From positions 3,921,501-3,985,500 of the forward strand of contig WPIO01000035.1 of assembly GCA_009760855.2 (NCBI GenBank): a stretch of DNA of 64,000 bases. The letters are read 5' to 3'. This document shows positions 14,523 through 21,924 of the stretch, one piece after another (position 1 is the first letter of the stretch; the number at the start of each line of letters is the position of its first letter). Under the pieces are notes generated by a model. It was not told where the DNA came from, made no database searches, and saw only the letters and a list, made by a program, of their open reading frames with translations. The DNA comes from Cristatella mucedo. Its lineage: Eukaryota; Bryozoa; Phylactolaemata; Cristatellidae. A program made the position numbers and the translations under genes.

Positions 14523-14795
14523 TTAAACCGCTGTGCCTCCACCGTCCGTCGACTGGACACTGCAGGACGCGTCTCTATCAGTAGCCTCACTGCCACCCGC
14601 CGCCTCGTCGCCGATCAGACCAGTGTCGGCTTCGACGTCGCTCTCGCCGTCAGCAGCTCCTAAACCACCACTGGGCACCCAGAGGCCCAAGGCACCACAG
14701 TGCTTCATGTGGTATTCGGACTCCTTCTGATCCATTTCGCCAATGATCTTCAGCAGCAGTGATTTGTCCTTCGTGTCAGAGCATTCTTTCATCGA
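14523..14795 (-). CDS. CDC37: CDC37-like Hsp90 co-chaperone, C-terminal exon
   Basis: CDC37 recruits protein kinases to Hsp90 in the cytosol. This exon reads from a tgtag acceptor (14796-14800) into SMKECSDTKDKSLLL, IIGEMDQKESEYHMKHC and GALGLWVPSGG, then an acidic Gly/Asp/Glu-rich tail and a stop at 14523-14525. Known CDC37 proteins have, near their C-terminus, a KCFDVKD-like segment, a KMDP-like segment, a YHM-x-x-C motif and GLWVPN before an acidic tail. Order, spacing and position at the end of the protein agree. It lies on the same strand as, and downstream of, the exons at 21,4xx and 21,8xx. About 6.5 kb separates it from exon 4, unusually long, and the exons for the middle domain were not found there. 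It may belong to a live gene or an intron-bearing pseudogene. Confidence 0.8.
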   Translation of the reverse strand, partial: SMKECSDTKDKSLLLKIIGEMDQKESEYHMKHCGALGLWVPSGGLGAADGESDVEADTGLIGDEAAGGSEATDRDASCSVQSTDGGGTAV

Positions 14796-15137
14796 CTACA
14801 AGAGCATCGTGCAGCTGGTGAGAGCTGACTGATCAATATGGGGGCAGGCAGGTGAAATGGCGCCCACCATCAACTCCACAGAGAGCCAGGAGAACCAAGT
14901 GGAAGTTATGCTGCTCTTTTGCACTCCAGCCAATGCACTTCTCGGATGCAGCAGCTGGTCAAAAGTTCATGCATGCATCGAACAGCGAATCTCACAGACA
15001 TCTAGGAGAAAGAGTCACAGGGCTGCTAGAGGCTATGGCCCAGCCATTGGAAGTGGTTCGCACCGGTTCCCCAGTGCGATGCATCCGAAGAAATTTCACC
15101 CTGCCTGGTTGGCCCTCTCAGAGTGGTAGTAATACTA

Positions 15138-15515
15138 CTACTACTAATAATAATAATAATATACTTGATAAAACGCCCTCAGATAACTCAGTATATCTCT
15201 AGGCACTTTACATTTGCTGCAAATTAAACATGATGGAAAGTCACTGGTAGCATGCTGAATCAACAACAAGAATAGCATGGTTACATGCACAGGATCAGCA
15301 AGCTTGGTTAGTGGAAATATGCAGTGGCAAGCACATGCAGGTCCAATCACAGGGCACCCACTACATGCTGTAATATATATAGGTGCGTTTTAAGCTTATT
15401 CTTAAATGTGGTCAAGTCAGGGGATGTCGTGACGCAAGGCAGGAGTGAGTTCCAAGCTTTTGGGAGCATACGAACTAATGGCTTGGTCTACAAACGGTTC
15501 GAGGTTTAGGGAGGA
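15138..15515 (-). mobile_element. LINE family A, 3' end, antisense, inside the CDC37-like locus
   Basis: An ACT/AAT repeat (15135-15163) leads into ttgataaaacgccctcaga, the antisense family A terminus. The 3' UTR and the last codons follow, up to about 15515. It lies in what would be the last intron of the CDC37-like gene. Confidence 0.8.
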
Positions 15516-15984
15516 GTGGTTGACAGAGCCTTGAAGGATGTTCAGAGTGCCGAATCAGGTTGCATTTCATAAGGGAGGTATATTGTACATTTACTTTTGA
15601 GTGGCTCCCATATTTTATTTGGGGGGAGCTAAAAAAAAATCTACAGGGTAGCAAACCTTTGATGGGAGTGTCAAGGTTGTTTCCCGAAGCTGGCCACTAG
15701 GTACTTAGAGGGGCTTACAAGGCAGTCGACGAATCACCCCTCTCCCATTCAAATATCTTCAGAGGTGGGCTCAAGTCCTTTAAGAACCCTTCAGCCACGG
15801 AGTGGCCAAAAAACTTTTGAAAAGTAGCCCTACCTGGTAAACAGTAATGTCCTTTGCGAATTAGTTACTGCATCTGGCCTAATATTGGCATTCGCCCACA
15901 TTTCTCTAGATTAGCATGGCAAGAATTTGTGGCCAGTGGTGAAGAAACTCATCCCACAAGGGTCAAGGTAATTTGTATTTGACG

Positions 15985-16078
15985 AACCTAGGCTGTGGGC
16001 TCGAGCCCAGTGGCATATGCTAAACACCTAATTAGAGATCAAGTTCTCTTAGCAAGCTATACAAATGAATTATGTAGA
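15985..16078 (+). mobile_element. tRNA-derived SINE-like copy
   Basis: Contains ggctgtgggctcgagccc, a good B-box-like sequence, then a tail agagatcaagttctcttagc followed by atacaaatgaat. The tail resembles the end of LINE family A (gagattaagttctctgag). It is followed directly by a long AT run. Confidence 0.6.
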
Positions 16079-16079
16079 T

Positions 16080-16141
16080 TATATATATATATATATATAT
16101 ATATATATATATATATATATATATATATATATATATATATA
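16080..16141. repeat. (AT)n microsatellite
   Basis: About 30 AT units directly after the SINE-like tail, as if grown from it. Confidence 0.97.
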
Positions 16142-21129: not shown

Positions 21130-21252
21130 TCTCTCTCTCTCTCTCTCTCTCTCTCTCTCACTCTCTCTCTCTCTCTCTCTCTCTCTCTCTCTCTCTCTCT
21201 CTCTCTCTCTCTCTCTCTCTCTCTCTCTCTCTCTCTCTCTCTCTCTCTCTCT
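21130..21252. repeat. (CT)n/(GA)n microsatellite abutting a CDC37-like exon
   Basis: About 60 CT units with a single interruption (a CA at 21160). On the minus strand it is (GA)n starting straight after the codons for LMEQR. Confidence 0.97.
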
Positions 21253-21276
21253 CCTTTGCTCCATCAGATCCTTCTT
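21253..21276 (-). pseudogene. CDC37: CDC37-like, start of fourth exon cut by a GA repeat
   Basis: A tgtag acceptor (21277-21281) opens into KKDLMEQR. In known CDC37 proteins the residues after WCIDLE-x-E are a short E/K-rich link and then ALMEQ. Joining 21395 to 21276 in phase 0 keeps exactly this spacing. After MEQ the family continues VAHQ, but here a pure GA repeat follows, encoding Arg-Glu. The exon is therefore destroyed by the microsatellite, or the real splice leaves here without a GT donor. The call rests on eight residues plus phase and order. Confidence 0.5.
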
Positions 21277-21394
21277 CTACAACGACCGGGACGCGAGCGC
21301 CTGCACAGTGAGCCGCTGCGCGACTTGCGACGACCGCCTCAGCAGCAGCAGCAGCAGCAGCATCTTAAACAGGCTTAAAGGCTTAAACACCCAC
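21277..21394 (-). other. Short CDC37-like intron containing (CAG)n
   Basis: Would-be intron of 118 bases with a GTGGGT donor and a TTGTAG acceptor. It holds seven or eight CAG units on the plus strand (21340-21361; CTG in the sense of the gene). Confidence 0.45.
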
Positions 21395-21554
21395 GCCCTC
21401 CAGCTCGAGATCGATGCACCACAGGACGAGATAGTTGGCAGTCTCGTCGCAGGCTAAGTAAGGATGCTCGGTGAGGAACTCGAGGCTGTCGTCGTACTTT
21501 CTGAACAAGCAGAATTTCTTCACCAGCAGTGTTGTTCCGTTCGGTGAAGCGTTT
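21395..21554 (-). CDS. CDC37: CDC37-like Hsp90 co-chaperone, exon with the WCIDLE block (frameshifted)
   Basis: Contains the most diagnostic CDC37 sequence: RKYDDSLEFLTEHPYL followed by DETANYLVLWCIDLELE. The acceptor is cttttgtctag (21555-21565) and the exon opens KRFTERN, which fits the KTFVEKY-like start of this segment in known CDC37. To reach the KYDDS frame one surplus base must be removed at about 21530-21538, in the stretch aacaacac. With that base removed the exon is 53 codons, phase 0 at both ends, and its spacing to DDS equals that of animal CDC37. The frameshift is either a true lesion or a base error. The likely donor is GGC|GTGGGT. In the WCIDLE frame a stop follows at 21383-21385 if the donor is not used. 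Confidence 0.85.
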
Positions 21555-21812
21555 CTAGACAAAAGAGCCGGAGAACATGAGGCAGCAGCACGTAAGACGA
21601 AGCGCAAGGGCATGGGCTGAGAAAGCATGTTTACTCGAGCGTTGAGCATTGGCTGAGCTACAGACGCAGGTGGCTCGATGACTACTTGCAAGAGATACGA
21701 GCTGCTATAGGCAAGCAATCGTTTTTGGCAACCTTGCTCTCCCCTCCTGCCTGCCTTCTAGTGCTCCACAAGCCACTACTACCCGCACAGTGAGACAACC
21801 AGGTGGCCCTAC

Positions 21813-21924
21813 CTGCCTATCCATCTTTTCCTCGTCGGTCAAGACTTCCTTTTTCCGAGGTTCACTCTTGTTAATGATAGTCTTTCCTTTCCCATCGTGA
21901 CAAATTGTGTCGATGTTGAGCAGC
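21813..21924 (-). CDS. CDC37: CDC37-like Hsp90 co-chaperone, upstream exon
   Basis: The acceptor tttttgtagctcag (21925 upward) is followed by one base and then 37 codons starting LLNIDTICHDGKGKTIINK and ending DEEKMDRQ at a GTAGGG donor (21807-21812). Known CDC37 proteins have WNVDTLS-x-DGF-x-KT-x-INK followed by a charged linker. The exon ends in phase 0 and joins the next one exactly where the family continues. No frameshift is seen here. The N-terminal exons (the kinase-binding start of the protein) should lie above 21,940 on the minus strand. I did not find them before the LINE-rich DNA begins. Confidence 0.85.

Follow-up and report, generated by a model that had tools for sequence, protein, structure and literature searches.

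The window, by which we mean the whole 64,000-nt stretch of DNA analysed here (C288:3921501-3985500 in a 572-Mb assembly of 688 contigs), carries on its minus strand three coding exons of CDC37 and a 21-bp stub of a fourth, together with introns and a stop codon. With 48 matches to the Wnt family, which is known only from animals, the genome is that of an animal. These coding pieces follow the order of CDC37, and each is preceded by AG and followed by GT wherever introns are expected, with the exception of the third piece, which has no donor. The initial annotation had reported three CDC37 exons in order with splice signals, and its coordinates prove correct within a few bases. The features are as follows, with exons numbered as in the intact gene on contig C55 described below, referred to as the parent.

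12948..22020, minus strand: duplicated segment (blastn), collinear with C55:7138729-7148754 (plus strand), introns retained
21813..21929, minus strand: copy of exon 4, 39 codons, open frame, AG/GT, 113 of 117 nt as in the parent
21395..21554, minus strand: copy of exon 5, 160 nt against 159 in the parent, 126 of 132 nt as in the parent after the frame break
21527..21535, minus strand: stretch within which the extra base of exon 5 lies, from comparison of frames
21277..21394, minus strand: intron separating exon 5 from the exon 6 stub, 118 bp, GT...AG, with a parent intron in the same place
21256..21276, minus strand: exon 6 stub, the first 21 bp (KKDLMEQ), then cut off
21130..21253, minus strand: GA microsatellite, counterpart of the GA array in parent intron 7 and distal end of a deletion
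14526..14795, minus strand: copy of exon 8, the last exon, 90 codons, open frame, 247 of 270 nt as in the parent
14523..14525, minus strand: stop codon TAA

The identity of these pieces is clearest for exon 5, whose 44 codons from 21526 match PDB Cdc37 chains (best E=3.9e-13), and for the last exon, which matches 2n5x (E=1.9e-7); the C-terminal domain profile PF08564 scores 18.6 bits on the window copy (E=0.0021, cut-off 22.1). The exon 4 copy resembles fly and human CDC37 weakly (E=0.012 and 0.16), and taken alone it has no match in PDB up to E=10; it is identified by its position and by the intact gene on C55, whose exon 4 encodes the same 36 residues as the last 36 codons of the copy. Apart from the frame break, the frames of the retained exons contain no in-frame stop, and the exon 5 donor and exon 8 acceptor are both in phase 0. 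G or C ends 118 of the 173 exon codons, in a window whose G+C content is 43.5%, and this high value implies that decay is recent or slight.

As the initial annotation had noted for the middle domain, the remaining parts of CDC37 are not visible in the window: tblastn of human and fly CDC37 against its whole length gave no convincing further middle-domain or N-terminal exon, and the lowest E-values of the N-terminal and middle query parts (down to 0.005) belong to two GA arrays, near 21.2 kb and near 54.5 kb, that translate as Arg-Glu. A Trypan_PARP Pfam match was likewise taken as GA repeat translated in this way. Pfam scans of read-through minus-strand frames (three frames over 14-53 kb, two of the three over 53-64 kb) found no CDC37_N or CDC37_M and, as sole CDC37 signal, the C-terminal exon below its cut-off; such scans are insensitive to short exons, to the point that even exon 5 is missed over 14-24 kb. 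The N-terminal kinase-binding domain PF03234 is not found in the window and has its single genome match on C55. Of the Hsp90-binding middle domain PF08565, the window copy matches profile positions 8-43 of 113 only (15.2 bits, cut-off 25), the rest being deleted. What a functional CDC37 would have to show of these two domains is not present in the window copy.

The intact parent gene

One of the two alternatives in the initial annotation was that the locus is a duplicated pseudogene and that the genome has an intact copy in another place. That copy exists: a complete CDC37 gene lies at C55:7134235-7146990 on the plus strand, with eight modelled exons, a full frame of 393 aa and GT-AG at all introns.

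7134235-7134270, plus strand: exon 1, chosen by motif
7136131-7136316, plus strand: exon 2
7138470-7138574, plus strand: exon 3, chosen by composition, splice sites and place
7138827-7138943, plus strand: exon 4
7139209-7139367, plus strand: exon 5
7139471-7139586, plus strand: exon 6
7139710-7139899, plus strand: exon 7
7146718-7146990, plus strand: exon 8, stop codon read in the DNA

Its protein aligns with PDB Cdc37 chain 7z37 over residues 3-361 (E=1e-125), an alignment that spans exons 1 and 3, and CDC37_N, CDC37_M and CDC37_C all exceed their Pfam cut-offs. The CDC37_N family has one match in the whole genome, on C55, and none in 14 control genomes; PF08565 is uninformative at this scale, with no match in the genome or in the controls and the parent itself missed, its domain being split by introns. 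A search of window and genome with CDC37 proteins, which the initial annotation had proposed, leads to the gene on C55: human CDC37 gives eight matches genome-wide (five on C55, two in the window and one elsewhere on C288), and the C55 protein gives 15, seven in its own gene, three in the window copy and five in two further copies considered below (four and one). Exons 2 and 3 are found on C55 only; exon 1, with its 12 codons, falls below the length that such a search can find.

The window copy corresponds to the 3′ half of this parent. The two are directly seen to be collinear in five main blocks over about 9 kb at 88.0-92.0% DNA identity, introns included, with further length differences between the blocks, and in both, exons 4, 5, 6 (its start) and 8 follow one another in the same order and with the same phases. 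Since the similarity begins inside parent intron 3, the parent promoter and exons 1-3 are not part of the window copy. The initial annotation had counted the missing middle-domain exons as damage, and these are deleted; the absence of the N-terminal exons reflects where the similarity starts and is no additional lesion.

Frame break, deletion and substitutions

Two lesions are observed directly in the window copy. An extra base, which the initial annotation had placed near 21530-21538, makes exon 5 one nucleotide longer than its counterpart. The first nine codons from the splice acceptor resemble CDC37 in the other frame, with a score reached by 85 of the 78,887 stop-free 9-mers of the window, and this match means that a one-base frame break is present in the window sequence. 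Alternative splice sites were considered as its source and rejected: an in-phase upstream acceptor, sought by eye, yields a product without resemblance to CDC37, and in the parent the matching acceptor opens an exon of 159 nt.

The other lesion lies where the exon 6 stub runs into the GA array, an arrangement the initial annotation had correctly described as a microsatellite directly after LMEQ. At window 21256/21257 the alignment jumps from parent 7139491 to about 7139935-7139967, and about 450-480 bp are missing, namely the greater part of exon 6 along with intron 6 and exon 7. In the parent, intron 7 contains the same array at a distance of some 35 bases from exon 7, and because it is present at the corresponding place there, the window microsatellite was not inserted. 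On the simplest reading, a deletion would have brought the array beside the stub, with an end that can be placed only to within the repeat.

The exons of window and parent differ at 33 of 519 nt; in three long blocks of mostly noncoding sequence, the third of which contains the last exon, 574 of 6,905 aligned positions are mismatched. In a test that assumes a constrained gene to be free at 25% of its sites, the exon count agrees with a model in which the window copy drifts and the parent is constrained (P(X>=33)=0.14) and disagrees with one in which both copies are constrained (P(X>=33)=2.6e-8); drift in both copies is not rejected (P(X<=33)=0.06). The NG86 estimates are dN 0.055 and dS 0.110 overall (dN/dS 0.50), and 0.084 and 0.113 for the last exon (dN/dS 0.74). 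For exons 4 and 5 together they are 0.026 and 0.107 (dN/dS 0.24), a ratio that does not look neutral, although only ten changed codons (five synonymous, five non-synonymous) stand behind it. Human and fly CDC37 residues serve to polarise the amino-acid differences: of 11 in the last exon, where 41 residues align, seven are changes in the window copy, one is a change in the parent and three are undecided, and the six in exon 5 divide into three, one and two, respectively. The last exon has 27 sites identical in human and fly, of which 19 are retained in the parent and 14 in the window copy. Selection on the window copy is relaxed, with exons 4 and 5 tending to form an exception.

Further copies and the segmental duplication

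Two more partial copies were found, which we call T and F.

C288 about 4047593-4052454, minus strand: copy T, with exons 4 and 5 and a decayed last exon, about 109 kb from the window copy
C55:7184724-7185005 and flanks, inverted relative to the intact gene: copy F, an older fragment of the 3′ end, lying past the gene by about 38 kb

Copy T keeps the 159-nt frame of exon 5, unlike the window copy; the donor after this exon is GC rather than GT, and its last exon has two stops. As in the window copy, which lies on the same contig, its similarity to the parent starts inside intron 3. The 5′ part of T is 94.7% identical to the window and extends into a larger duplication, whereas for its 3′ part the identity drops to 70-77% against the window and 72-80% against the parent. 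The larger duplication takes in most of window 21387-49872, which matches C288:4051821-4076054 in collinear blocks of 94-97% identity; its left end lies directly past the exon 5 copy.

Copy F groups with the 3′ part of T: over three stretches, identities are 0.83-0.85 between T and F, 0.88-0.93 between parent and window, and 0.73-0.80 for the cross pairs. The flanks of F (within C55:7180001-7189000) are common to the C288 copies and missing from the intact gene in the stretches compared. The parent might have converted the window copy, an idea considered because the parent-like tract has flanks shared with the older copies. Gene conversion is not needed, because the tract identities fit a pairing of parent with window against T with F, and because the values for the left flank of the window copy against T and F (0.77 and 0.75) are about those of the tract (0.73-0.79).

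An intron probe (window 17000-18600) gave at least 47 matches, with 40 of 2,849 candidates scored; seven fall within the loci of the parent, the window copy and T, and the other 40 within a short dispersed repeat. The probe barely overlaps F, and the genome may contain more old CDC37 fragments. The repeat itself, about 150 bp long, occupies window positions of about 18061-18221 in the large intron and is 77-80% identical to at least 40 other matches.

Other elements were observed in and around the duplication. A LINE-like element at about 35474-39094, with an 899-aa frame encoding endonuclease and reverse transcriptase (RVT_1 E=4.6e-30), is missing from the matching site of the other duplication copy, where the flanking blocks overlap by some 5 bases; judged from its sequence context, it looks like a young insertion facing an empty site. 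A LINE 3′ fragment at 22976-23624 is also not found at the corresponding site. Relatives of the LINE protein and of the last CDC37 exon were absent from the viral contigs scanned, and the LINE DNA from the plasmids scanned. On the minus strand, a read-through frame at about 51673-51909 has a weak Peptidase_C14 (caspase) Pfam match (E=0.021, 15.0 bits, cut-off 21.4).

Origin and significance of the window copy

We are highly confident that the locus is an unprocessed, 5′-truncated duplicate pseudogene of CDC37. Its history could have been as follows: a segment reaching from intron 3 to past the 3′ end of the C55 gene would have come onto C288, where the exon 5 frame of the copy would then have been broken by one base; a deletion that ended in the intron-7 GA array would have taken out the greater part of exon 6 along with intron 6 and exon 7, and amino-acid changes would have accumulated at conserved sites, with CDC37 itself presumably supplied by the intact C55 gene. 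We infer the order of these events and the mechanism of duplication from the copies as they stand today, and likewise that no protein is made from the window copy, which without the parent promoter and N-terminal exons would be unable to make CDC37.

Several other explanations deserve consideration. Long dinucleotide arrays are a weak point of assemblies, and the deletion ends in one; as the retained exons are also free of in-frame stops apart from the break, a functional CDC37 might have been spoiled by a sequencing-error base and by the loss of the middle exons as the assembler crossed the array. We see only a slim chance of this, since a complete CDC37 exists elsewhere in the genome, exons 2 and 3 occur on C55 alone with both C288 copies starting in intron 3, and the altered conserved residues are not an effect of assembly error. 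The extra base by itself could be a sequencing error, and an assembly error is not required for explaining the locus. A slimmer chance still attaches to a young gene, in which exons 4, 5 and 8 would be spliced from a new promoter into a regulatory RNA, or into a short protein devoid of the kinase-binding part, acting on the intact CDC37 on C55. The preserved splice sites, the open frames of exon 4, exon 8 and exon 5 past the break, the shared phase 0 of exon 5 donor and exon 8 acceptor, and the low dN/dS of exons 4 and 5 are what such a gene would have; against it stand the frame break, the near-neutral last exon, an Hsp90-binding part that is mostly gone and the absence of the kinase-binding part. 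A processed (retrotransposed) copy, for which nothing speaks except the LINE-type reverse transcriptase in the window, is refuted by introns that align with those of the parent, as the initial annotation had argued from their retention, and has practically no chance of being correct.

Compared with the C55 gene, the window copy has neither exons 1-3 nor exon 7, retains just the start of exon 6 and carries one surplus base in exon 5. It resembles the duplicated (unprocessed) pseudogenes that arise from segmental duplication in its intact parent, shared introns, partial extent, relaxed selection and disabling lesions (in the sequence as assembled), and differs from them in no matter of principle, its deletion merely happening to end in a microsatellite. 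The vertebrate paralog CDC37L1 (Harc) scores similarly for exon 5. CDC37L1 is without the CDC37 C-terminal domain, however, whereas the window copy keeps the C-terminal exon, and the nearest relative found is the genome's own CDC37. A putative CDC37 relative in a bacterial assembly, where one of 63 pattern matches passed, was taken as chance; the open frame behind it presumably resembles a pyruvate formate-lyase type enzyme. Among the literature matches listed, no title concerned CDC37 duplicates.

Yeast Cdc37 is called essential in a passage of PMC10881880, and the locus at first seemed to be a broken essential gene. No such gene has been lost, and the locus is an ordinary duplicated pseudogene; because the genome has an intact copy, the essentiality of CDC37 is not at issue here, and a false alarm is removed. 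An annotation pipeline could mistake the window copy, alone or as part of a chimera, for a CDC37 gene. With one intact gene and three partial copies of different age, this genome offers a small, clean case of segmental duplication and decay.
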